Below are positions 1,751 to 63,010 of a stretch of 64,000 bases of DNA, piece after piece (the first letter of the stretch is position 1; each line of letters begins with the position of its first letter). The translations under genes were made by a program, and so were the position numbers. Origin of the DNA: a virus. The stretch is from positions 1 through 64,000 of IMG/VR virus record IMGVR_UViG_3300031787_000060, one strand, 5' to 3'. A model generated the notes under the pieces. It did no database searches, was not told the origin of the DNA, and saw nothing but the letters and a program-made list of their open reading frames with translations.

Positions 1751-2616
1751 TTCTTAAGTATTTTAACCAAGTCATTTATTTCAATACCTTCTTTGTCGGC
1801 CAATTTTTTAATATTTTCTAAATTTTTCATAAGGACTTTACTCAACCCACTTTTCTTACCCATTTCTTTGTCACCTGATTTTTTCTTAAGAACTATATCT
1901 TCAACCATTTTTTTCATCATTTCTTTTTTCTCTTCTTCCAAATTTTCTTTTTCAGAAATAGTCATTCTATCAATAAAACCTTTTTGTTTTTTAATTTTTT
2001 TGGGAACTCTTTCTAATTTTTGTCTATGTTTTTTAGCGTCAGGTTCTTTACCTTGTTGTCTTGTTCTTTCAGCCGCCTCTTCTTTATCTAAACCTAACTC
2101 TTTAACAAATGTTTTGAAAGTTTCAGGGCCATTTTTGTCTTTTGTTTCTTCATATCCAAATGCATCTGAAAAGTCAGTTTCATTAATTACCTCGTCAGTT
2201 TCTTCCTCACCCTCACCCCAATATACACGATATCCACGAGTAACAGGATTGTTTGTTTGTCTTGTTGCAACAACCTCCTGGTCCATTGTACTCTTTGGTG
2301 AAAGATAAGGATTAAAAATTGGAATTTTAGAACTTAAAAAACTTCCATCATAATCAACTAATTCTTCTAATTCGTCTTTTTTCTTATTTAAAGTTTTTTT
2401 AACGTCAGAATTATTTTTTAATTTTTTTTCTTTTTGAATTTTTGAAATTGTTTTTTCAACCTCTTTTTTATCTTTCTTGTCGAATTTAACAACTTCATCT
2501 TTTTTTCTGGCTTCAGTTAATGTATTAGAAACACTAAAATATACAGAAATATCTTGCTTCCCCTCTTTGATATAGAAGTAATATGGTGAACTAAAATATT
2601 CTTTATTAAATTCCAT
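1747..2616 (-). CDS. Lysine-rich hypothetical protein, first gene of the minus operon
   Basis: A 289-residue, highly charged protein (Lys/Glu/Asp runs at about residues 25-80 and 180-289), probably largely helical or coiled-coil with disordered linkers. The central part (about 95-165) is less charged and has aromatic/Gly residues including a GYRVYWGEGEEE stretch. The N-terminus has a short hydrophobic/aromatic segment ending in Y-I-K-E-G, another possible L/I-x-E cleavage site. Scaffold-like or internal head proteins of T4-like phages have this composition, but I cannot assign a role. It is preceded by a TATTTATA-type late promoter 14 bases upstream and heads the operon. Confidence 0.65.
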   Translation of the reverse strand: MEFNKEYFSSPYYFYIKEGKQDISVYFSVSNTLTEARKKDEVVKFDKKDKKEVEKTISKIQKEKKLKNNSDVKKTLNKKKDELEELVDYDGSFLSSKIPIFNPYLSPKSTMDQEVVATRQTNNPVTRGYRVYWGEGEEETDEVINETDFSDAFGYEETKDKNGPETFKTFVKELGLDKEEAAERTRQQGKEPDAKKHRQKLERVPKKIKKQKGFIDRMTISEKENLEEEKKEMMKKMVEDIVLKKKSGDKEMGKKSGLSKVLMKNLENIKKLADKEGIEINDLVKILKK

Positions 2617-2630
2617 TTGGCTTTTTACAT

Positions 2631-2637
2631 ATAAATA
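2631..2637 (-). promoter_or_regulatory. Late-type promoter motif (TATTTAT)
   Basis: The minus strand reads AAGTATTTATATG, ending 14 bases before the start at 2616. It lies 12 bases from an opposite-facing copy, making a compact divergent pair. Confidence 0.6.
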
Positions 2638-2649
2638 CTTGGATTTAAC

Positions 2650-2656
2650 TATTTAT
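2650..2656 (+). promoter_or_regulatory. Late-type promoter motif (TATTTAT)
   Basis: TATTTATC ends about 7 bases before the ATG at 2664. With T4-like spacing the transcript would begin at or next to the start codon. Confidence 0.6.
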
Positions 2657-2663
2657 CAATAGA

Positions 2664-5588
2664 ATGGCTCAACAGAATATAAATCAATTCAATTTTAAAA
2701 AGTGGTATGTTAAACCTGTCCCAAAAATTTTTGACATTTGTTTAGCATCGGATGAAAAAGATTATAACGAAGAAGTTGTATTTTCAACTAATCTTATTGG
2801 TTATAATGATGGTAATAGATTACCTATTTATTTTGATTTAAATAATCCTTTATCATCACAAGAACTAACAATTAACTATGGTGATTTTTTATCAGGTAAT
2901 ACTTTAGTTTCATTAAATTATTACAATCCACTAAATGATGATTTAAATTGTTTAACCGCATCTACATTATGTGATATTGGATTAACAGGCATAGATAATG
3001 GTTTAGTACCACAGATGACAGGTGAAACAATTAATTACACAATGGGTTTATTTACTGGGTCAAGTAAGTGGGATAGATATTATTTTGATAGAAGAACAAA
3101 ATTATTTCAGGTAACTGGATATACGAATCCTCCAAACGAAAGATTTTCAGGAAATACAAAACAAACTTTGTATAATATGGTTTCAGAATCAGGTTATACT
3201 ATTACATATTACAATCAATTGTATGGAGGGTTTTATCAAGGTTTCTTTAGATTGTTTGGATATGACTACGAAACATTTCCAAGTAGAACAAACGAAGGAT
3301 GGACTGTTGAAATGTTAATTAGACCAAGATATGTTGATGAATTTGCGCCGACATCATCTCAAACAACTTTAAATTTAACATATCCTGAAAATGAAAATAC
3401 TTTTTTCTACTTTGGGGCGAGAGCTGAAAATAAATTCTACCATCACGCATCAGGTTCACCATCTTCAGATAGTGGATACACAAGAGTTACAAGTGTTTTA
3501 AGTGGATGTTTAGAAACTTGTGCTTGTTCAAACACGGGTGTGACCAATTCAAGATGTGTTGAAGTATATGAACCTTTGGTTTATAGTCCACAACATAATA
3601 CAGATTGTAATTGTGGGTGTAACGCAACCACCCAAGTTCCAAATAGTGACAAAGACCCGTTATACGATTCAATGTCAAATTCATTTTCATTGAGGTTATC
3701 AGGTGACCCTAAAAATCCAAAAGTTTGTGTTAAAGTATTAACATTTACAGGTGGATGTGTCACTACTGGTACTTGTCCAACAACAGGTATTACATATCAA
3801 ACAGGATATACTATTACTGAATATTGTTCATCAAATCAAATTTTTGATTATTGTGAAAGTTTAAATTCTGATTATACAACAAAAGAACATTGGATTTTAG
3901 TAGATTGTGTGTGGGAAAGAAGTACTTATTTTGATACTTGTGATTTATATTACAGAGGAGGGTTAGGACTAATTAGTGATACAGAATATGTTGATAGTTT
4001 ATCAAATAATACCGTATTATTAATCGAACCACCAATAACACATACAGGTTCAACACCTGCGGAACAAGTTGAGATAGTTAACCTAAATGAAAGATGGTTA
4101 ATTGAGAGAGAAGATAGATTAGGTGTGTTAAAAATCTATATTAACGGAAGATTATTCTATGTTATTAACGGATTTGAAGAGGTAATCCCAAGAGCTCTAA
4201 ATACAGAAAAAGAAAAACAATTAGGTGTTCCATTTAATATTTCTTGGGGTGGTGGAACACAAGGTTTAAGAGAGAGTTTAACTTTTACCGGATGTCCAAC
4301 AACCTTAACAGGATTGACATACATGCAAGACCCTGAGGTTATGCCAAATCAAACATTGTCAGGAACTTCATTATCAGGTTTAACAACCAATATACTATTA
4401 GAACCAACTTTTGGTGGAACGTTTGATGGTGCAATTTCTCAATTCAGAATGTATACAGAACCATTAAGTTATCCTGAAGTTATACATAATTTTGATATTT
4501 TAAAAAGTCCGTTTTTACTTTTTGACTACGGATGTCCCGATTGTTCTGACGGATTAATTAACGATATTTGTTTATTAGTTTCAGGTAATAATCTTACAGT
4601 TACCTCAACTACTTTTGCCGATAGAACATTTAATTTATATTATGATGTTTCAGAATCAAATCCAAGATATTTGATTACATCAGGTCAGACATTCCCATTT
4701 ACAGTTAACAATACTACAATACCTAATTGTTGTTATAATAACTTTTATTTACATTTAATTGAGGATGACCAAACTTTAATTTTAACTTGTTTTGACCCAA
4801 GTAGACCAACACCAACACCGACACCTACCGTCACACCAACACCATCAGTTACTCCAACTATTACGCCAACACCATCGGTTACTCCAACAATTTACGCGTC
4901 TCCAACACCAACAACAACATCTACTCCAACTAATACTGAAACACCAACAAATACACCAACAAATACTCCTACCGTAACCCAAACCCCTACTAATACCGCA
5001 ACTGTAACTCAAACTCCAACTAATACTGTAACTCCAAGTCAAACTCCTACAAATACACCAACAGTTACACAAACTCCAACAATAACATCAACCCCAACTA
5101 ACACGCCAACAGTAACTAAAACACCAACGGTAACTCCTACAGTTAGTTTAACTCCATCACCATCACCTGCGGAACCTTTAAATATGTATGTGATTGGTAA
5201 TGAAAAGAATGGTGACTGTTCAGTATCAAGTATGGTTGTTCAATATAGAGATATTAATGGTAATTATGTTAGTCAAACTTTAGGTTCTCTTAGTGATATT
5301 GGTTATATGACAGTTGTGTCTTACGCGAGTTATCCGCCACGATGGATATCAGGTCCAGCATCACCTGACGGATTTGATTTAATTGATTTAGGAACTTATT
5401 CATCTACAAGTTGTTATAATTTCCAAGCGACGACTTATTGTCAAACATTACCACCTGACTTAACTTTAAATTATGTGGATTGTAATGGTGTAAATCAAAC
5501 TATAGACTACGCTGGTGAAAGTCTTTACACATTCTCAGCCAGAACATTTACCGCAGAAAACAAAATACAAATTCAGAAACAAGCTTAA
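2664..5588 (+). CDS. Tail fibre/adhesin with LamG-like domain and Thr-Pro linker
   Basis: A 974-residue structural protein. The N-terminus (about 1-60, starting MAQQNINQFNFKKWYV) probably anchors it to the virion. Residues about 200-620 look like a concanavalin/LamG-type jelly roll: GWTVEMLIRPR, then strands such as LKIYINGRLFYV, and a closing FDGAISQFRMYTEPLSY segment typical of the last strands of that fold. The LamG part has a Cys-rich insertion (about 275-440). Residues about 712-834 are a long Thr-Pro/Ser linker, and a separate Cys-containing domain of about 140 residues ends the protein. LamG domains bind carbohydrates, so host-surface recognition is likely. It has its own late promoter and stands between an opposite-facing operon and DNA polymerase. 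Confidence 0.75.
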   Translation: MAQQNINQFNFKKWYVKPVPKIFDICLASDEKDYNEEVVFSTNLIGYNDGNRLPIYFDLNNPLSSQELTINYGDFLSGNTLVSLNYYNPLNDDLNCLTASTLCDIGLTGIDNGLVPQMTGETINYTMGLFTGSSKWDRYYFDRRTKLFQVTGYTNPPNERFSGNTKQTLYNMVSESGYTITYYNQLYGGFYQGFFRLFGYDYETFPSRTNEGWTVEMLIRPRYVDEFAPTSSQTTLNLTYPENENTFFYFGARAENKFYHHASGSPSSDSGYTRVTSVLSGCLETCACSNTGVTNSRCVEVYEPLVYSPQHNTDCNCGCNATTQVPNSDKDPLYDSMSNSFSLRLSGDPKNPKVCVKVLTFTGGCVTTGTCPTTGITYQTGYTITEYCSSNQIFDYCESLNSDYTTKEHWILVDCVWERSTYFDTCDLYYRGGLGLISDTEYVDSLSNNTVLLIEPPITHTGSTPAEQVEIVNLNERWLIEREDRLGVLKIYINGRLFYVINGFEEVIPRALNTEKEKQLGVPFNISWGGGTQGLRESLTFTGCPTTLTGLTYMQDPEVMPNQTLSGTSLSGLTTNILLEPTFGGTFDGAISQFRMYTEPLSYPEVIHNFDILKSPFLLFDYGCPDCSDGLINDICLLVSGNNLTVTSTTFADRTFNLYYDVSESNPRYLITSGQTFPFTVNNTTIPNCCYNNFYLHLIEDDQTLILTCFDPSRPTPTPTPTVTPTPSVTPTITPTPSVTPTIYASPTPTTTSTPTNTETPTNTPTNTPTVTQTPTNTATVTQTPTNTVTPSQTPTNTPTVTQTPTITSTPTNTPTVTKTPTVTPTVSLTPSPSPAEPLNMYVIGNEKNGDCSVSSMVVQYRDINGNYVSQTLGSLSDIGYMTVVSYASYPPRWISGPASPDGFDLIDLGTYSSTSCYNFQATTYCQTLPPDLTLNYVDCNGVNQTIDYAGESLYTFSARTFTAENKIQIQKQA
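4801..5172 (+). repeat. Low-complexity Thr-Pro linker-coding repeat
   Basis: About 370 bases of imperfect ACn-CCn units encode [14 protein letters not shown]-like and PTNTPTVTQT-like repeats. The unit is irregular (VTPT, TNTP, TQTP), which suggests repeated expansion and drift. A second copy of the same kind lies at 62227-62450. Confidence 0.8.
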
Positions 5589-8814: not shown

Positions 8815-9945
8815 TTAAATAACATACATATTTCTTGGGAACGCTCTAAACTTCATTTGTTTGTTTAGATTTTCAGCAATTAATGCTTCTCGTTCCATTA
8901 TTTTTTCAGGACGTAATCTTGTCAATCTACCGTCGGCACCAATTAATTCTTCAATAAGTTTTGTTTTTTCATCTTTACCCTCAGTTGCCAATGAAGCGTA
9001 ATCCATTGTTAATTCAGAATCAGGTGTTTTTAAGTTTCCTGAGTATTTTCCTCTTACTTTGGCTAATGTTTCTTTACATCCTGCTACAAAATATCTTCTA
9101 ACCCATTGTTGTGCCGGTTCATTTAAATCCGCCCATGCAATTGAGTTCATAGGTACATCTGAAGGTAGTTTAATAATATCAGGATTTGCGGCCAAACAAG
9201 CGTCTCTATCCTCAGGGCCAACATCATAATACCAATACCAAACTTGTGAATTTCTTAATGATGAGTTACCGAAGTCAAATTTACCACCAGGTGTTTGCAT
9301 CAAATGAATTGCCTTTTTACCATTAGGTAAACCTGTTATTCTATAAGTTAAATCACCTGCAATAATTCTTCTTTGAATATTAATTTCTTGTAATCTTAAC
9401 AACATATCAAACGCTGGCATCATAAAGTATGAACCAGTATAACCCATTTGAGAATAACCTGCTGGCCCTGCCATACCATATCCACCTAACGCACCAAAAC
9501 TCCATGGGTCAAATAATACATTATTAAGAGCGGTTGGTGTAAACCATAATAATTCATTAATTTCACGACCTGCTGGAATTTCATAAATTTGTTGATTTGG
9601 AACTAATGTGATATAATCTTTTTTAAGAACCCAATCCCCAAGAGGTGATGATTGTAACCCAACTATTTTGGAATAAGCCTGAGCATATCTATTTTCAAAA
9701 TCCAAACTTTTTGTTACAAAAGCTCTTGATAAAGATTGTGTGTCTAAATTTAGATTATTTAATGATGTCCATTGTGATTCAATTAACCAATCTTGTACAT
9801 ACTGAGCATAATCTCCGATAGAAAATTCTAAGATTGAGTCCATTTGTTCATCTTCTAATTCAATTGAACGAATTGGTGCACCTAATACGTGTCTAACTTT
9901 TGTGTATAGTTGACTTCTGTAAGGTTCTGCGATTATTGTATTCAT
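8815..9945 (-). CDS. 13: Neck protein, T4 gp13-like
   Basis: A 376-residue protein. The N-terminus (about 8-55) has the pattern Y-x-x-V-R-x-x-L-G-A-P followed by I-x-x-E-L-x-x-E-Q-x-D..-L-x-F-x-x-x-D-Y, which matches the helical start of gp13-type head-tail joining proteins (R-R-L-G-A-P...). The middle (about 140-185) is Gly/Met/aromatic-rich and longer than in T4 gp13 (309 residues). A central segment has QVWYWYYDVGPEDRDACL, and a helical C-terminus follows with basic residues. The neck seals the packaged head and receives the tail. It has its own late promoter and lies close to gp14- and gp15-like genes on the other strand. The gp13 assignment rests mainly on the N-terminus and context. Confidence 0.65.
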   Translation of the reverse strand: MNTIIAEPYRSQLYTKVRHVLGAPIRSIELEDEQMDSILEFSIGDYAQYVQDWLIESQWTSLNNLNLDTQSLSRAFVTKSLDFENRYAQAYSKIVGLQSSPLGDWVLKKDYITLVPNQQIYEIPAGREINELLWFTPTALNNVLFDPWSFGALGGYGMAGPAGYSQMGYTGSYFMMPAFDMLLRLQEINIQRRIIAGDLTYRITGLPNGKKAIHLMQTPGGKFDFGNSSLRNSQVWYWYYDVGPEDRDACLAANPDIIKLPSDVPMNSIAWADLNEPAQQWVRRYFVAGCKETLAKVRGKYSGNLKTPDSELTMDYASLATEGKDEKTKLIEELIGADGRLTRLRPEKIMEREALIAENLNKQMKFRAFPRNMYVI

Positions 9946-9968: not shown

Positions 9969-11474
9969 TCAATTCAGAGTATAAATTAAATCTTGTGTTG
10001 GAATTTTAAACATACTTGAACTAAAAGCAACAGTTTTGTTTTTAAAAATGTAAACTTCTTTATTAAGATTTGAGAAAATTAACAAGTCGGTATTGAATTT
10101 TTTAACAAACCCTTTGATTTTGATATGATAGAAACCTTCAATTACTTCCATACTTAAAATTGGTTTTACTTGAGCGTTTTGTATTTTGTTATCAAAATTT
10201 ACTGTTAAATCAGTTCCTGCAAAATCTTCTTTTGAACCTAAACTACCTACTACAGTAGCAGTTCCTTCACCAAATTCTTGATTGATTTTTTTTGCAACAT
10301 ACTCTTCAAGTTGACCACCTTTGTCATGTGTTCTTTTTAAAAGTTTCATAATTTTATCAAGAGTTTTAGACCCTTTAAAAATTCTTTCACCAAAAAAACC
10401 CAAATACTCACAAAATTTGTTTATTTCTTCTACTTGTTGTGAAGGTGTTACCCCAATAAAATTTAATGTGGGTTTATTTAATTTTGTAAGTACCACATTT
10501 AAATCATCAACTAAAATTTTAAACCCAATATAGTTTGTATTTAATTTATTAATTACTGAACGACCAGGAGCTTCTAAATCGTAAATACCTGAAGATGAAC
10601 CTTCAGAGTGTTGATTGTTTTCATACCATTTATCAGATAAAACTCTTTTCAGTGTATTGTCAATACATCTTCTATAAGTCCAAAGAACATTTTTGTTGTT
10701 ACTAAAAATATCTGAATAATCAGATACGTTTTCGTATAAAAGTTTTTTTGGTGAAATTGATTCGTTCAATTTTTTTTCAGTTTTTGATTTGTATAACTCG
10801 TTAACAAATTCCCAATTAATTACGTCCCAAAAATTTTCAATATATTCGTCTCTTTTGTTTTGGTATTTTAAATAATAAGCGTGTTCCCACAAATCTAAAC
10901 CTAACAACGGAAAACCACCCTTGTTTATTATGTTCATAAGTGGATTATCCTGATTTGAAGTCGACATAACTTTTAATCTACCAGTATCGGTTAATACTAA
11001 CCAACACCATCCTGAACCAAATCTTTTTCTTGAGATTTCTTCAAATTTAGTTTTGAAGTTACGATATGTTCCAAATTGTTTAACAATCTTTTCAAACACT
11101 TCACCACTTGGTTTTTGTGGGGTTGGTGATAACATCTTCCAAAACAATGCGTGATTAAATGCTCCACCTGCGTTGTTTCTTATTGTTGTATTATACTTTG
11201 AAATTTGTTTAACAATGTTTTCTAATTCAACATCCCCATAATCTTTTTTACGAAGAGCTGAATTTAATTTTTTAACATACCCTTTGTAATGTTTCTGATA
11301 ATGAAACTTCATTGTTTCAGGGTCAATAAATCTTCTTAATGATGCGTAACCGTAAGGTAATTTATCAATACCTATGGTTTTCATTTCGTTAATAAAGAAT
11401 TTGGTTTCAGGTTGAGTTTCCTCACCTAATATACGACTAACTAATGACTCTGATACTAAATTTAACGATTTCAT
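9969..11474 (-). CDS. Manganese-type superoxide dismutase fused to a nuclease-like C-terminal domain
   Basis: A 501-residue, three-part protein. Residues 1-30 are a short helix with an I-L-G-E site, like a capsid-targeting peptide. Residues about 36-228 are a complete Fe/Mn superoxide dismutase: metal ligands H58, H108 (FNHALFW), D194 and H198 (LDLWEHAYYLKYQN), second-shell H62 and Y66, and the FGSGWCWLV strand. Gly104 and Gln175 (STSNQDNPLM) match the manganese enzyme rather than the iron enzyme. Known family activity is conversion of superoxide to peroxide and oxygen. Residues about 230-501 are not part of any superoxide dismutase; the last 115 contain E390/E391, a G-T-D at 420-422 and Q-V-K at 435-437, a spacing like PD-(D/E)xK nucleases. 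A late promoter lies 5 bases upstream of the ATG, pointing to a virion or late role. Confidence 0.9.
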   Translation of the reverse strand: MKSLNLVSESLVSRILGEETQPETKFFINEMKTIGIDKLPYGYASLRRFIDPETMKFHYQKHYKGYVKKLNSALRKKDYGDVELENIVKQISKYNTTIRNNAGGAFNHALFWKMLSPTPQKPSGEVFEKIVKQFGTYRNFKTKFEEISRKRFGSGWCWLVLTDTGRLKVMSTSNQDNPLMNIINKGGFPLLGLDLWEHAYYLKYQNKRDEYIENFWDVINWEFVNELYKSKTEKKLNESISPKKLLYENVSDYSDIFSNNKNVLWTYRRCIDNTLKRVLSDKWYENNQHSEGSSSGIYDLEAPGRSVINKLNTNYIGFKILVDDLNVVLTKLNKPTLNFIGVTPSQQVEEINKFCEYLGFFGERIFKGSKTLDKIMKLLKRTHDKGGQLEEYVAKKINQEFGEGTATVVGSLGSKEDFAGTDLTVNFDNKIQNAQVKPILSMEVIEGFYHIKIKGFVKKFNTDLLIFSNLNKEVYIFKNKTVAFSSSMFKIPTQDLIYTLN

Positions 11475-11479
11475 TAATT

Positions 11480-11486
11480 ATAAATA
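11480..11486 (-). promoter_or_regulatory. Late-type promoter motif (TATTTAT)
   Basis: The minus strand reads AAGTATTTATAATT, ending 5 bases before the superoxide dismutase ATG (11474). It lies right after the helicase stop codon, so the enzyme gene has its own late start. Confidence 0.6.
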
Positions 11487-11487
11487 C

Positions 11488-13248
11488 TTACTTACTATTG
11501 ATTTCGTTAAGTATTTGTTCAACAATATCTACAGAATTTTCATCAACATCACCCATAACCGTACCAATAATCTGTTTCTTCTTTATCAGAATGTCGTAGA
11601 TAACACCCTCAATTGTATTTTCAAATAGTGGGTAATATACTGAAACTGAATTTTTTTGTCCGTATCTGTATGCTCGGTCTTCAGCTTGGGAATGTTCTGC
11701 CGGTACAAATGATAGGTCATTCATAATAACAGCTTCACCCGCAGTAAGTGTTAATCCAACACCTGCGGCTTTCATATTACCACAAAAAACTTGTATTTTA
11801 TCACTCTCTTGGAACTTGTCAACCGCATCTTGTCTTGCAGGTTTTGATGTTGACCCATCTAAATAAACAGATTTTTTACCAAAATGTTCGTGTATCTTTT
11901 TAAGTGGTTCGGTAAAGTTACTAAAGATAATAACTTTTTTACCTTGTTCGATAATGTTCTCAGCAAGTTCAATTGTAATTGGTATTTTTTCTTCGGCAAT
12001 TACTTGTCTTACTTTCATCAGTTTTGTAAACTGAACAGATAATGACTTTGATTCGTCTTGTCTGTTGTTATACCAATCATAATACTCACCCATCAATCCT
12101 TCATATAACCTTGATTTCAAACGAAGGTAAACAGGAGTCATAATTTTTTCAGGTAAATCTAAAACATCAGTTTTTAATCTTCTTAAAATTTGACGAGAAG
12201 TCCTTTCTCTCAACTCTTCCAAGTTTGACGCTCCTGTAACATTCCAAATCTTTTTACCACCAACTCTAAACTGATATCCACCACAATATCTAATTGCGTA
12301 TGCTTGCCAGTTTTGACTTACAGGACTATCAATAAGTTTTAAGATATTGTAATAATTCATTGGACGAGAAGTCATTGGTGTTCCCGTTAGTAACCATAAT
12401 TTTTTAATATTCTTGGTTACATCCATTATAATCTTTGTTCTTTGAGCTTGAGCGTTTGAAACATAATGTGCTTCATCTATAACAACTAAATCAAACTTTG
12501 AATTAAGAATTATTGAGTTTAACTTATCTTTTGGGTCATGGAAGTTTTTAAGAATGTCGTAGTTAACAATAACGTAGTCCGCTTGTTCAAACTTCTTACC
12601 CTCACAGATATAAACTGATTTGTCAGTATAGTTTTTGATTTCTCTTTCCCAATTTATTTTGAGAGACGCTGGACAAATAATTAACACTCTATTAGCTCCA
12701 CTTTCTAACGAAGCAATAACAGTACTTGTTGTTTTACCAAGTCCCATGTCATCTGCTAAAATAAACTTGTCGTTTTTTAATAACTTTTCAATTGCTTCTT
12801 TTTGGTGAGTAAGTGGTGGACGGTTTTCGTATTTTGAGTAATCAACGTCAACCAAGTTTTCGGTGTATTGTTTGATAACCGCCGCTTTTGGTATCCAAAA
12901 ATCATGAATAGTTTCACCACTAAAAATCTTACCCCAAATATGATATGATTTATCTTTTTCAATTAAAATCTTTTCAACGTAAATTTTATCAGGTTCCTTA
13001 ATGAATGGATTATCGGCAACAAGTTTTTGTGAAAAGTATGAGTCAATCTCAACCCATTTCTTAGCGACTTTTGGAACTACTGAATTATAGTCAATAACAT
13101 AATCACATTGAGCTCTTGTTGGGACATACTTTTTATTTGACTCAATTTGTTTCTTTAATTTAAGGATATAGTTATTTGAGCCTTGATAATTTTCAAGAAT
13201 GGATATTGCTTGTTGCTCAACACTTAAATGTCCCGTAGAAGTCGTCAA
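11488..13248 (-). CDS. SNF2-family DNA helicase/translocase
   Basis: A 586-residue superfamily 2 ATPase. Motif I is DDMGLGKTTST (K172), motif II is DEAH (258-261), motif III is LLTGTPMTSRP (about 287-297), and the second RecA-like lobe ends with a motif VI region EDRAYRYGQKNSV, the hallmark of SNF2/SMARCAL1-like enzymes. About 140 residues precede the ATPase core and do not match a domain I know. In T4-like phages such helicases act in recombination-dependent replication or fork remodelling, as UvsW does, though UvsW is a different subgroup. The only good start is TTG at 13248. No TATTTAT motif faces this way, unlike its neighbours, so it is probably expressed earlier. Confidence 0.93.
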   Translation of the reverse strand: MTTSTGHLSVEQQAISILENYQGSNNYILKLKKQIESNKKYVPTRAQCDYVIDYNSVVPKVAKKWVEIDSYFSQKLVADNPFIKEPDKIYVEKILIEKDKSYHIWGKIFSGETIHDFWIPKAAVIKQYTENLVDVDYSKYENRPPLTHQKEAIEKLLKNDKFILADDMGLGKTTSTVIASLESGANRVLIICPASLKINWEREIKNYTDKSVYICEGKKFEQADYVIVNYDILKNFHDPKDKLNSIILNSKFDLVVIDEAHYVSNAQAQRTKIIMDVTKNIKKLWLLTGTPMTSRPMNYYNILKLIDSPVSQNWQAYAIRYCGGYQFRVGGKKIWNVTGASNLEELRERTSRQILRRLKTDVLDLPEKIMTPVYLRLKSRLYEGLMGEYYDWYNNRQDESKSLSVQFTKLMKVRQVIAEEKIPITIELAENIIEQGKKVIIFSNFTEPLKKIHEHFGKKSVYLDGSTSKPARQDAVDKFQESDKIQVFCGNMKAAGVGLTLTAGEAVIMNDLSFVPAEHSQAEDRAYRYGQKNSVSVYYPLFENTIEGVIYDILIKKKQIIGTVMGDVDENSVDIVEQILNEINSK

Positions 13249-22880: not shown

Positions 22881-25800
22881 ATGGCTGTAGAATTCTTATC
22901 ATTCAACAATTCGGAACAATTTAGAAAAGCATTAGTTGCAAGGAATTTAGCACCGTATAGTATTCAGGGTAATTTTACTTCACCCCAAGGGTTACAAAAC
23001 TATCCAATTAAATTACAAGACAATTCACCGGCAGATTCTGAAAGTGTAAGTTCAAACTTATATGTTGAACCTGCGTATAGTACAAGAATGAATTTGTATA
23101 GTCCCGCAGGTCAATTTTTTGATGGGGCATTAGTTGTTGATAATACGGTTCTTCCTGGTGGAGGAAGTACTGAAAATAACCCTTTAGGTACATCACAACC
23201 ATATGACTTACAAACATCAAGAATGGATTTATTCAATGAGGCATTTATTGATGATGCTGAAGTTGTTAATAGGTATTTACCACCTGATGGTTATGAGGAT
23301 TTATTCGTTACATCTGATTTAATTTTAGGTAAGTTACCTGCTGGTTCACAAATATATGGTGATGGTAAAGTTGCTCCAATCATATTTGTTCAGGGAGATT
23401 ATACTAATTACGAAATATTATTTGGTGACGCCGCATTAGCTAACGACTCATTTTTACAACAATTGGCGGCTCAAAGTTTGAGAGAAGCTACACAAGCCCG
23501 TATTGCTAGAGAAATTGAAAGAAATACTATTGGAGCAATTAATCTTGATACTTTAACTAATCCATTTAATGCGACGTTGTTAGCCACAGGTCAAGAACCT
23601 TTTGTTTATAGAGATTATACTATTACAAAACCTGACGGTCTATTAGATTACGCTGCGTTTTTCATACAAAAGTTAAGTGGTACTTATTTACCCGCTTCAC
23701 CTATTGAGGGAAGTTATTTTTCTGATACTGAAATATTAAGATTACGACCACTACAAGCTATTGGTAATTTGGGTGGTGGAAATATTACAAACAGACCAAA
23801 CCCGTCAATTAAATTTTTACAAAATACAGGTGCTGGTACAAAATCGGTTTTATTTAACGCACTTAACTACAATAGGTTTAAACCTAACTACGCTATAACA
23901 TCTACACAGGTTGGTAATTTTATTAATAATTTATTTGATAATTTTACTTCAATAGGTAACCTTTATGTTGGTAGACAAGAAACGGACATTACAAATGTTG
24001 TATCACCACCAAACGCTTCGCCTATAGACGCTTTTGGAATACCAACACAAGCTCCTGTATATGGGCCTGATAAGGTTGGTATATTATATGAAGGTGACCA
24101 AAATTTTCAGTTTGGATTAGCTGGATTAAATTACGAACAAAAACCTTCTTTTGATGGAGGATTTGTTTGGATTACAGAATTTACAAAACCTGAAGCTGGA
24201 AGAAATGTTGGACAAGGTGGACAGTTGTTAAGTAATAATCCAAATTTTACACCGTTAGCGTCTTCTTACAATCAAGTTTTATCTACTAACTATACATTTA
24301 GACCTGGTTCTATTTTAGATGTTACACAACGATTAATTAACTCAACACCTGCTCAAGGTGCTGATAGATTGGGACATGTTGGAAACGCAATTAATCAAGT
24401 GTCTAAAGTATTTTCAGATGGTTATAAAATATTAACCAAAGGTTCAAAAGTTAAAAAATATGTTAATAACTCAGGTACTGAGGTAGGACAAGAATATTGT
24501 AGAATCTTTACAAAAGATAAACCTTATTACACTTATGCTAATTTACAAAAAACAGTTGCTAATGACTCAGGTTTAGAAACTAATGGTAACATTAGAAGGT
24601 TTACTTATTCTGTTTTAGATAGTACCTACAATCTTAATATTACACCTTTTAAAAATGGTGGGACAAATGTCATTAACGGACAGGTAAAAAAATACATGTT
24701 GTCTTTAGAAAACTTAGCTTGGAAAGACACACCTGAATATAATCAACTTCCATCGGCAGAAAAAGGGCCTAATGGTGGTAGAATTATGTGGTTCCCTCCA
24801 TACGATTTAACTTTTGATGATAGTTCTACACCATCATTTAATGAAACTGATTTTATCGGTAGACCTGAACCAATATATACTTATAAAAATACTAAAAGGT
24901 CGGGTAGTATAAATTTTAAAATTATTGTTGACCATCCGTCCGTGTTAAATTTAATTGTTAATAAAGAATTACAAAATCAATCTAACTCAACTATAACATC
25001 GGTAGTTGATTCATTTTTTGCAGGATGTCAAAGGTATGATATATATGAATTAGCTCAGAAATTTAGTTCATTAAGTTTAGGTACTATTGACGAAGTTTAT
25101 CAACAGGTATTGGAAAGTTTAGATACGTCAGAAAGTGATAAAGTAGACGCTCTAACACAAATACCACAAGAGGATAATTCAGGGCCAAAAGAATTACCTA
25201 ATTTAAGTTCATATGTTGGTAACGGAATATATTTTAATGCTGATACTACAGAAAATAGTAACTATGACCAATCATATGAAAACATATATAACCAACTTGT
25301 CACAAATATAAACTCTGAATCTTTTGATGGTATTGATGCTTCTAAAAGTTTTTTAGAAAATACAATAACTCCAAATTACAATAATTTTATTGAATTAGCT
25401 CAAGAAATTGCGGATGCTTTAGTTAATAACAATGAGGTTAAAATAGATTTAAAGGCTACTAATTTTGGTGTTGGTGGTATTTCGGGGCCTGAATCACAAA
25501 ATTTAGGTGAAGATAGAAAACAAAGTATTATTGAATATTTTAATCAACTTGTATATCAAGGTACAAATATTTCAGAGTATGTTGACTCCAGAAGATTAAA
25601 AATTGATGTTAACTCTGGAACTATTGATAATTACAAACCTAAAGATAGTAGTCAAACTTATAATTGTAATGGTAATAATATTGCCGATGAATATAATGTA
25701 ATCCGTGTTGCTTGTAGTACTTTGGTTATCAGTAAAATTACTGTACAACCGTATACACCATTTGGTACAAAAGTTGCTAAATCGGTGAGTGAAGGTTATA

Positions 25801-43272: not shown

Positions 43273-43295
43273 TAATTAACAATATCCGATGTGTT

Positions 43296-43320
43296 ATCCC
43301 GAGCTAGGTCGGGATTTTTT
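43296..43320 (+). terminator. Rho-independent terminator after nrdA
   Basis: The stem ATCCCGA (43296-43302) with TCGGGAT (43309-43315) around GCTAGG, followed by six T residues. It ends the replication/nucleotide gene run. Confidence 0.9.
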
Positions 43321-43331
43321 ATTTAAAGAGG

Positions 43332-43338
43332 TATTTAT
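43332..43338 (+). promoter_or_regulatory. Late-type promoter motif (TATTTAT)
   Basis: GAGGTATTTATTATTATG: the motif ends 4 bases before the ATG at 43343 and lies 12 bases after the nrdA terminator. Confidence 0.55.
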
Positions 43339-43342
43339 TATT

Positions 43343-44110
43343 ATGTCTAATATCATACAAGAAGAAATTCAAAAAATAAGAAAAATGATGCTCTCAGAGA
43401 ACATGGTTCAAGAGGGGGGTGAAAAAAAGTTAAAACAAACTTTAGACATTCTAAAAAAGAAAAAGAAAGTTTTATTATTAAGTTGTTCAAATAGATATAA
43501 TTGGGATGAGAAAAATATAGATGTTCCTAAATCTAAAATCTTAGCAATGTACTTAAATGAAGAACTTGGTGATAAGTCAGTTTTTATTGATGTTTCTGAA
43601 TTAAAAATATTTCCTTGTGAAGGGAATGTGTCAAGGGAAGAAGGTAATAGTTGTGGTATTTTAAAATCTTTACTTAAAGATGATAAAAAAAATCCTTCAG
43701 GATATCATAGATGTTGGGCTAGTTTAAATAATAAGACAGATGAACTTTGGAAAATTTCTAAAGAACTTTTTGAAGCAGACGCTGTAGTATTTTTTAGTTC
43801 TGTAAGATGGGGACAGGCAAATATGTTCTACCAAAATTTAATTGAAAGATTAACTTGGATTGAGAATAGACATGCTACTTTAGGTGAGAAAAATATTGTT
43901 GAAGGTATTGAGACAGGGTTTATCTGTGTTGGTCAGAACTGGAATGGTGAGGATGTAACTAAAACTCAAATGAAAGTACATGAGTTCTATGGATTTGAAC
44001 CTAATAAGAAACTATATTGGAATTGGCAGTACACTACTGATGTTTATGACGAAAGCAAATCTTCTTACAAAAAATCCCACAAAAAATTTATTGACGATAT
44101 GGGATTATGA
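43343..44110 (+). CDS. Flavodoxin-like NAD(P)H-FMN reductase with a possible capsid-targeting N-terminus
   Basis: A 255-residue protein from the ATG that follows the late promoter; a longer in-frame form would run through the terminator and promoter. From about residue 42 the protein has a flavodoxin fold: KVLLLSCSNR (phosphate-binding loop), then S-K-I-L-A-M-Y-L, A-D-A-V-V-F-F-S-S-V-R-W-G-Q-A-N followed by F-Y-Q-N-L-I-E-R-L, and G-F-I-C-V-G-Q-N-W-N. Two Cys (C-E-G-N-V and N-S-C-G-I, near 85-105) lie where iron-sulphur flavoproteins have Cys, but four are not seen in that pattern. Such enzymes reduce flavin or small electrophiles with NAD(P)H. The first 40 residues form a charged helix with M-L-S-E and M-V-Q-E sites. 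Confidence 0.75.
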   Translation: MSNIIQEEIQKIRKMMLSENMVQEGGEKKLKQTLDILKKKKKVLLLSCSNRYNWDEKNIDVPKSKILAMYLNEELGDKSVFIDVSELKIFPCEGNVSREEGNSCGILKSLLKDDKKNPSGYHRCWASLNNKTDELWKISKELFEADAVVFFSSVRWGQANMFYQNLIERLTWIENRHATLGEKNIVEGIETGFICVGQNWNGEDVTKTQMKVHEFYGFEPNKKLYWNWQYTTDVYDESKSSYKKSHKKFIDDMGL

Positions 44111-62005: not shown

Positions 62006-63010
62006 ATGAGTTTAGTAACAATAGATAGTTTGGGAGGAACACCTCCTTATGTTATTTCAGTTTGTGATATATTTCAATATTCTTGTCAAACTGTGACAAC
62101 TATATATGATTATATTCCACCATCTGTTAGTTTTAATATTCCGAGTCCATATTCATCGGCACCAAAAGTTTTAATTAAAATAGTTGATTCAACAGGATGT
62201 GTTTTTACACAAGAATATATATGTGTAACACCAACACCAACACCAAGTATTACTCCAAGTGTTACTCCAACAATTTCTTTAACTCCGTCAAATACTCCAA
62301 CACCAAGTATCACTCCATCATTTACACCGACACCGAGTATAACACCAAGTATTACACCTACACAAACAGTTACACCATCTCATACCCCAACTCAGACAAT
62401 TACTCCAACTGTTACAAGAACCCCTACTCCAACTGTGACACCTGAAACTCCTATTTACGCTTATTTATTCATTGAACCGTATTCAGGTTCATCAAGTATT
62501 GGTTCATACATGAACTCACTTGGCTCAAGTTTTTATGGGTTTACAAATACTACACAACCGAGTAGTTCAGCGAGTACATTTGATTTGGACATGAATAAAT
62601 ATGTTAATTTTTCGGGATGGACAACAGGATTGTTTCCAAGTATTATAAAACAAATTGTGCCAGGAACAAGTGGGGGATTTGATACATATGGTAATCCGTA
62701 TATTCGATATAATTTCCCAACAGTTAAAGTACCTGAAAATACTATTGGATGTAAAGCATGGTACACTTGGATAATACCGACTAATTTAACAAATAACCAA
62801 TATCAGATTGAGATTGATTTAGGAATTGTAAATCCAAATGTCTTTACAAGTGTAAAGATGGAACCGACAATTTATACTAATACATTTACTTATACGGGTA
62901 ATACTATTGCAAAAACAACTTATAGAGTTTATACTACATACCCATCAAATACATTTGAATTGGATAATACTTACGACCTTTATTTTAGAGGAAGTAAGGT
63001 TGATATATAA
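62006..63010 (+). CDS. Tail fibre protein with SprB-like start, Thr-Pro linker and C-terminal beta domain
   Basis: A 334-residue protein in three parts. Residues 1-73 read like one SprB-type module ([10 protein letters not shown], closing V-D-S-T-G-C-V-F). Residues about 74-148 are a Thr-Pro/Ser linker ([10 protein letters not shown] type). The last 185 residues are beta-rich, with no Cys pair, and contain [10 protein letters not shown] and a W-Y-T-W-I-I-P strand, probably a binding head. The architecture repeats, on a smaller scale, the linker layout of the fibre at 2664. It has its own late promoter. Confidence 0.7.
62227..62450 (+). repeat. Low-complexity Thr-Pro linker-coding repeat
   Basis: Imperfect repeats of 6 to 24 bases encode [13 protein letters not shown]-type sequence. 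Units such as ACACCAAGTATTACTCC recur with small changes, as expected for slippage or recombination. It has the same composition as the repeat at 4801-5172. Confidence 0.8.

Follow-up and report, generated by a model that had tools for sequence, protein, structure and literature searches.

The gene at 9,969–11,474 on the minus strand of the window, which is the 64,000-nucleotide stretch of viral DNA analyzed here, probably encodes an internal head protein of the T4 type that would be made as a polyprotein, packed, cut, and injected. The reading of a head-packed precursor that is cut is based on conserved (L/I)xE sites, the occurrence of gp21 and gp23 in related phages, leaders shared with other proteins, and lineages that lack one of its domains. 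The open reading frame is intact and codes for 501 aa, in which we distinguished an N-terminal leader, a Mn-type superoxide dismutase (SOD), a linker, and a PD-(D/E)XK-like domain.

Domain organization and SOD

The SOD occupies residues 31–230 (10,785–11,384, minus strand). A Pfam search located both SOD domains in order, Sod_Fe_N (PF00081) at residues 36–116 (E value of 1.9e-23) and Sod_Fe_C (PF02777) at residues 122–226 (7.3e-42). The closest PDB sequence was a superoxide dismutase (4.2e-60, residues 38–229), and many SOD structures were among the matches. An earlier note on this DNA had described a complete SOD of the manganese type, which agrees with our result: the ligands H58, H108, D194, and H198 as well as G104 and Q175 were correct and invariant in all 59 distinct proteins from the listed loci (the window's own included). 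Three His and one Asp are presumably the metal ligands, and the Gly/Gln pair in the second sphere is taken here to indicate the Mn type. Purifying selection was observed on both domains, with a dN/dS of about 0–0.14 for the SOD and 0.08–0.35 for the C-terminal domain in 10 pairs, each of which was divided into four segments with borders taken from the alignment. The SOD is intact in its sequence and very likely catalytically active. No PHROG family was matched by the whole 501-aa protein up to an E value of 0.1.

Conservation of the fusion and its neighborhood

In a scan of IMG/VR, relatives were encoded in 596 of 599 candidate stretches among the matches listed, and 80 loci were kept. They gave 59 distinct proteins including that of the window, and 25 representatives under 90% identity. 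Both the SOD and the C-terminal part were carried by all 80 listed loci, two of which (L031 and L068) were cut by contig ends and were left out of the counts for the C-terminal domain, so that these counts use 57 proteins. The window gene was recovered base for base (1506/1506) in one of the loci, L004, which lies within a 242-kb record (G001). The earlier note had considered that the fusion might come from an assembly error; this was ruled out, since close homologues in the 80 listed IMG/VR loci carry the same fusion and the identical gene occurs on another contig.

The downstream neighbor (8,815–9,945, minus strand) encodes a neck-type protein that matched the head-tail adaptor family PHROG 211 (2.3e-8). 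The neck genes reported earlier beside the SOD gene were thus recovered at this ORF, with a match that covers only a short stretch. Among the SOD loci with room for this neighbor, a short pattern taken from the neck-type protein was present in 75 of 75 and a stricter pattern in 54 of 75. The upstream neighbor (11,488–13,248, minus strand) encodes a SNF2-type helicase (Pfam SNF2-rel_dom, 3.2e-28), whose motif was found upstream in 68/68 SOD loci with room. Elsewhere in the window, two predicted proteins (2,664–5,588 and 62,006–63,010) contain long low-complexity repeats of the TPTPT/PTNT type.

When the whole protein was used as the query against the phage reference collection, SOD-domain matches were obtained in 29 records, none of them covering more than 80% of the query. 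In cellular genomes, no match among the best 80 of 236 relatives extended past query residue 256; accordingly, the C-terminal domain has no apparent cellular copy in this list, which was ranked by SOD similarity.

N-terminal leader and predicted prohead-protease sites

The added N-terminal peptide pointed out earlier does exist ahead of the SOD (residues 1–30; 11,385–11,474, minus strand), and given its conserved (L/I)xE end it is best read as a candidate capsid-targeting propeptide. Most of its first 27 columns vary, and E30 is invariant with L or I two residues earlier in 59/59 distinct proteins of the listed loci. The predicted prohead-protease site corresponds to the codons I28-N29-E30 (11,385–11,393, minus strand), and the predicted cut is after E30. 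The site reads KFFINE/M in the window precursor, the slash indicating the cut, and the SOD starts directly behind it with M31-KTIGIDKLPY. An (L/I)xE at this place was present in 25/25 phage representatives versus 2 of 62 readable cellular SODs, the latter being taken from the best 80 of 236 loci, 18 of which were unread by the pattern.

The linker (residues 231–248; 10,731–10,784, minus strand) contains one or two further (L/I)xE sites, the second of which ends at E248. At E248, [IL]xE was found in 55/59 proteins and [ILVM]xE in 58/59; at E238, [IL]xE was found in 50/59. The background rate of [IL]xE in the remainder of these proteins was 1.2% per position, and the second site was absent from one representative (L063). 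Furthermore, dN was higher in the linker than in the other three segments in 7 of 10 pairs, and the linker was modeled as disordered by AlphaFold2 (AF2) (pLDDT under 50, model residues 1–18), the fold beginning right after E248.

The motif L/I-x-E is the one given for cleavage by the T4 prohead protease gp21 in a passage of a previous report (PMC9026906). T4 internal proteins are described as having short N-terminal targeting sequences and being cleaved by gp21, and several of them are ejected, according to the relevant passages of three papers (PMC3012670, PMC9958956, PMC9026906). T4 has also been engineered to pack foreign proteins, including nucleases, by such targeting, as noted in parts of two of these papers (PMC3012670, PMC9026906).

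The precursor resembles those of T4 IPI, IPII, IPIII, and Alt in having an N-terminal leader that ends in L/I-x-E and in being one of several proteins with related leaders; T4-type gp21 and gp23 also occur in the relatives of the window phage. The T4 likeness lies in the leader design and the cleavage motif, and packaging is inferred here. The cargo differs from that of T4: a single precursor combines a SOD with a nuclease-like domain and contains an internal site. A point against the head-packing reading is the shortness of the L/I-x-E motif. We consider it likely that the precursor is cut by a gp21-type prohead protease.

Retention of the full fusion across the SOD-bearing lineages examined is what favors a protein that stays uncut and whose domains cooperate, for example with the nuclease-like domain tethering the SOD to DNA. 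Such an arrangement is nevertheless very unlikely in view of the (L/I)xE sites, which are conserved within a linker that is variable and modeled as disordered, and of the persistence of the nuclease-like domain without the SOD in three lineages.

Head machinery and leaders in related phages

Peptidase_S77 (gp21) was detected in 5 of 11 related records, the other six, in which it was not seen, being fragments. The capsid protein gp23 was detected in 6 of the 11, in one of them as a stub at a contig end. No gp21 was found in the window's own 80.8-kb record (0/1), itself a fragment; the protease and capsid evidence therefore comes from relatives. In G001, which contains the identical gene, gp21, gp23, a T4-type portal, and terminase were all confirmed. 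The capsid protein of G001 contains SFLINE/A with the E at position 60, which is close to the KFFINE/M of the SOD precursor, and the capsid site in other related records is SFLINE/A or SHLINE/A. For T4 gp23, removal of 65 residues is stated in part of a previous paper (PMC9958956).

A leader pattern was found at the N-terminus of 17 of 239 G001 proteins, including the SOD precursor. As a control, 198 internal Met sites gave 0 matches to the same pattern, and when the N-termini were shuffled 200 times, 0.91 matches were obtained on average and 5 at most; the test is post hoc because the pattern was composed after viewing the G001 protein list. The G001 ORFs were called per 20-kb stretch, by which genes spanning the joins were cut, and the matches include doubtful members such as ORF 167530, MKIVGFTQLRNELSKGN.

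Several other proteins with leader-like starts were observed. In G001 at about 222,631–241,513 (L108 and L109), mostly small proteins start with MKK(I/V)(I/V)RLTES(D/E)L..(I/V)(I/V)K.V(I/V).E, and these starts are likely related leaders on different proteins. A 595-aa protein with a leader-like start (L108:7412–9196, minus strand, which is G001:C1:227412–229196) joins a polyphosphate kinase 2 (Pfam, 1.7e-70) to a phage lysozyme domain (7e-10) and is a candidate for a second head-packed two-enzyme precursor. In the window, the ORF at 43,289–44,110 (plus strand) encodes 273 aa with the leader-like N-terminus IIQEEIQKIRKMMLSENMVQEGGE; it gave only a sub-threshold Pfam match and looks flavodoxin/reductase-like by eye.

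The proposal that the protein is virion-borne gains from the protease sites and from the capsid context seen in the records of relatives, and packing of the precursor in the phage head appears very likely from these features.

C-terminal PD-(D/E)XK-like domain

The C-terminal domain (residues 249–501; 9,972–10,730, minus strand) consists of a helical part followed by a PD-(D/E)XK-like core at about residues 380–501. The AF2 model of residues 231–501 had a pLDDT of 87.5 and a pTM of 0.79, and the PD-(D/E)XK core fold (helix, mixed sheet) was found in it with moderate structural scores. The best PDB matches in Foldseek were I-Ssp6803I (1.7e-3) and then Hjc resolvases. The best VIA-align match was Hjc 2wcw_D with a Z score of 8.3 (model 154–271, 105 aligned residues, rmsd 3.7 Å), the next being 7.8 and below; NhoI (7.3), SPARDA (7.2), and DpnI (6.0) followed, and the top 20 rows consisted of Hjc-type resolvases, I-Ssp6803I, restriction enzymes, and SPARDA. 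We take Hjc resolvases, NhoI, and DpnI to be PD-(D/E)XK enzymes. The earlier note had left room for an ordinary structural fold, and the model turned out to be nuclease-like.

E390, D417, G420, D422, Q435, K437, and P438 were invariant in the 57 of 57 proteins uncut by contig ends, of which 51 were used in the fold alignment. The active-site set E, D, (D/E)xK is matched in the sequence by E390, D422, and Q435-x-K437, with Q at the third position. In the model, D422 lies just ahead of one strand and Q435-x-K437 within the next. The E..G-T-D..Q-V-K pattern previously noticed in the C-terminal region of about 270 residues corresponds to these same residues, and its comparison with PD-(D/E)XK nucleases is borne out by the model. 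Of the two checks suggested for this part, structure prediction gave the nuclease-like fold, and the profile search matched no PD-(D/E)XK family (25 of the 27 Pfam families shown, with 51 members of the domain as the query). There was also no PDB sequence match. I-Ssp6803I, Hjc, NhoI, DpnI, and SPARDA DREN share the core fold and the E..D..(D/E/Q)xK motif with the domain, which differs from these enzymes in showing no sequence match to them and in having an additional N-terminal helical part.

BFVD contained a 501-aa "superoxide dismutase" (A0A6J5L953) with 92% identity across the C-terminal model, as well as a marine phage protein of 1113 aa that matched the whole domain. With a SOD-less relative as the query, the phage reference collection yielded one homologue, in two 735,411-base records that resemble one genome. 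This protein of the 735-kb phage LR756501.1 has 290 aa, is 24.5% identical, keeps E..GVD..QCK, and is without SOD or evident leader. It sits in L313 (LR756501.1:687678–698514).

The domain is rather likely an active nuclease, to judge from the model and the invariant residues. A nuclease enclosed alongside phage DNA would need restraint of some kind, which counts against our best reading. A head-packed protein with a non-cutting domain, which binds the packed DNA or blocks a host enzyme and keeps the conserved residues for fold or metal, would be easier to pack because it is safe for DNA. Replacement of D/E by Q in the third motif and the moderate structural matches point the same way, and T4 IPI is described in one passage as inhibiting a restriction enzyme (PMC3012670). 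We regard a non-cutting domain as possible but doubtful, since E390, D422, Q435, and K437 do not vary and the motif persists in the distant homologue of the 735-kb phage. Furthermore, SPARDA DREN is a PD-(D/E)XK nuclease that uses D41, Q60, and K62, as given in part of its description (PMC12205087). As active DREN uses D/Q/K, the QxK of the C-terminal domain is no argument against activity.

Loci without SOD, phylogeny, and likely hosts

Three separate lineages were found to have the C-terminal domain but no SOD at this locus; most of them keep the leader or a site. L165/L166 encode 298 aa, and L185/L186 encode 309 aa with both (L/I)xE sites remaining. In the L158/L267 group, the SOD was absent from 45/45 readable loci of 46, and the leaders ranged from long to nearly none; in L296 and L306, the leader is short and a clean site is lacking. 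Where the loci had room, the L267 group showed the helicase motif in 39/39 and the neck pattern in 43/43, and no SOD motif was seen elsewhere in the DNA around its loci. L310 (1 of the 46) and L123 were unread by the pattern. In L165, the helicase gene upstream (2,537–4,903, plus strand) is longer, with 789 aa read, and MGLGK is followed there by a stretch resembling an intein (CEPKNNKVFTPNGRKKIGDLKVGDNVIG).

After removal of duplicates, a tree was computed for 49 C-terminal domains (24 with SOD and 25 without); it needed three changes, which were forced by well-supported branches. Their direction was taken from midpoint rooting and parsimony, with long branches flagged for L029, L064, and L070. 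In the SOD tree, all 25 phage SODs were on one side of a branch (100/100) and formed a long branch among mostly Bacteroidota SODs. The nested position of the SOD-less rows and the single grouping of the phage SODs point to three losses rather than gains. By this distribution, the SOD is an optional module of the C-terminal-domain gene.

The bS21 gene of G001 (194,570–194,752, which is L106:14570–14752, plus strand; PF01165, 3.5e-10) lies on the opposite strand, amid the genes for terminase, portal, protease, and capsid. This location and the SOD tree jointly suggest freshwater Bacteroidota as the likely hosts. A bS21 gene among head genes is also described for freshwater Bacteroidetes phages in passages of a previous paper (PMC9723584), in which the term "superoxide dismutase" occurs 0 times.

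An ordinary auxiliary metabolic gene, the fused product of which works uncut in the infected cell as an antioxidant outside the virion, would agree with the nesting of the SOD among mostly Bacteroidota SODs. SOD and other antioxidant genes have in fact been described in freshwater phages, and the idea proposed so far in the passages concerned is protection of the infected host (PMC6802176). This explanation is unlikely, however, because it accounts neither for the invariant (L/I)xE ahead of the SOD and the second site nor for the shared leader design, and it also leaves unexplained that the SOD alone is absent at the same locus in three lineages.

Upstream element

The earlier note had assigned a late promoter to the gene. 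The T4 late promoter word TATAAATA was rejected, as it occurs 17 times in the window versus 14.06 expected and both nearby copies are on the other strand. A different word, TATTTATA, was found at 11,479–11,486 (minus strand), 4 nt before the ATG. It stands ahead of the start codons of 33 of 235 G001 ORFs (null mean 3.4, maximum 8), including those of the terminase, a neck-type gene, and the SOD precursor, and it precedes 7 of the 17 leader genes (Fisher p 0.004). In 12 of the 33 copies, that of the SOD precursor included, no more than 6 nt separate it from the ATG, an unusual spacing for a promoter. Among the SOD representatives, TATTTAT was present near the start in 25/25 and TATTTATA in 16/25. 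In the window, sense-strand copies were also observed shortly before the ORF starts at 9,945 and 11,474 (both minus) and at 22,881, 34,099, and 55,930 (all plus).

TATTTATA is thus a candidate late promoter or another upstream word, unlike that of T4. For a −10 element, a spacing of 4 nt to the ATG is very short, which leaves a late-type promoter as a plausible candidate for the SOD precursor gene. Since the word is shared with terminase, neck-type, and leader genes, late co-expression is plausible as well.

Discussion

From these results we infer packaging, cleavage, ejection, the enzyme activities, and the biological role as follows. The gene would be expressed late, and the N-terminal leader would draw the precursor into the prohead core. 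A gp21-type prohead protease would then cut after E30 and at E248 in the linker, and probably at E238 too. Cleavage would release a mature Mn-SOD that begins with MKTIGIDKLPY and has hardly any extension ahead of the SOD fold, and would also free a separate PD-(D/E)XK-like protein. Both products would stay beside the head DNA and enter the next host along with it. The SOD might remove superoxide in the first minutes, ahead of phage gene expression, and outside the cell it may also shield the packed DNA. The nuclease-like protein would most likely act on DNA in the new host, its target being host or competing DNA or a defense-related substrate. Whether the two proteins have such a role in early infection we judge to be an even question.

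The earlier note had described the protein as a fusion. The SOD and the nuclease-like part are both present in it, and we would recast it as a precursor, the SOD being absent in three lineages. As the prohead protease would cut this precursor, the SOD and the nuclease-like part probably function independently, each as a protein of its own.

SODs carried by virions are known from other viruses. A245R of PBCV-1 is a Cu/Zn SOD packed in the virion of an algal virus, and cells infected with PBCV-1 had less superoxide than those infected with a relative without the SOD gene, as reported in passages of one paper (PMC7019647). A virion SOD is likewise mentioned for giant viruses in part of another (PMC9405923). 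These enzymes are carried by the virion, as we suppose for the present SOD; the PBCV-1 enzyme is of the Cu/Zn type, whereas the present one is of the Fe/Mn type, belongs to a bacterial virus, and would be released from a fused precursor by a protease. Many cleaved, head-packed proteins of large phages are ejected into the host in the case of phiKZ and SPN3US, which belong to another phage lineage and for which the passages concerned mention no SOD (PMC9026906). A near-copy of the present protein has already been deposited as "superoxide dismutase [uncultured Caudovirales phage]" (A0A6J5L953), a name that covers the SOD alone and omits the leader, the sites, and the nuclease-like domain. A paper on Lac Pavin was rejected as a precedent for a phage SOD, as its passages on SOD concern CPR bacteria, not phages.

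Phage SODs and the virion SODs of algal and giant viruses are therefore already known. In the open-licence literature searched, we found no report of a bacteriophage SOD inside the virion, and the exact phrase "phage-encoded superoxide dismutase" was absent. To our knowledge, if our reading is true, an antioxidant enzyme would thereby be demonstrated in the head of a bacteriophage for the first time.

There is perhaps an even chance that, in large T4-like phages infecting freshwater Bacteroidota, the head protease processes multi-enzyme polyproteins and a set of ready-made enzymes, here a SOD and a nuclease, is injected for superoxide detoxification and DNA attack before any phage gene is expressed. 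If this is true, the T4-type internal proteins would be extended to a cleaved two-enzyme precursor, and phage SODs would gain a concrete delivery route. The leader-bearing proteins of these genomes could be read as an injected arsenal, and a sequence rule (a leader plus L/I-x-E) would list the proteins that uncultured lake phages may inject. Moreover, one could then test if superoxide poses a true danger, or serves the host as a weapon, during the earliest minutes of an infection.
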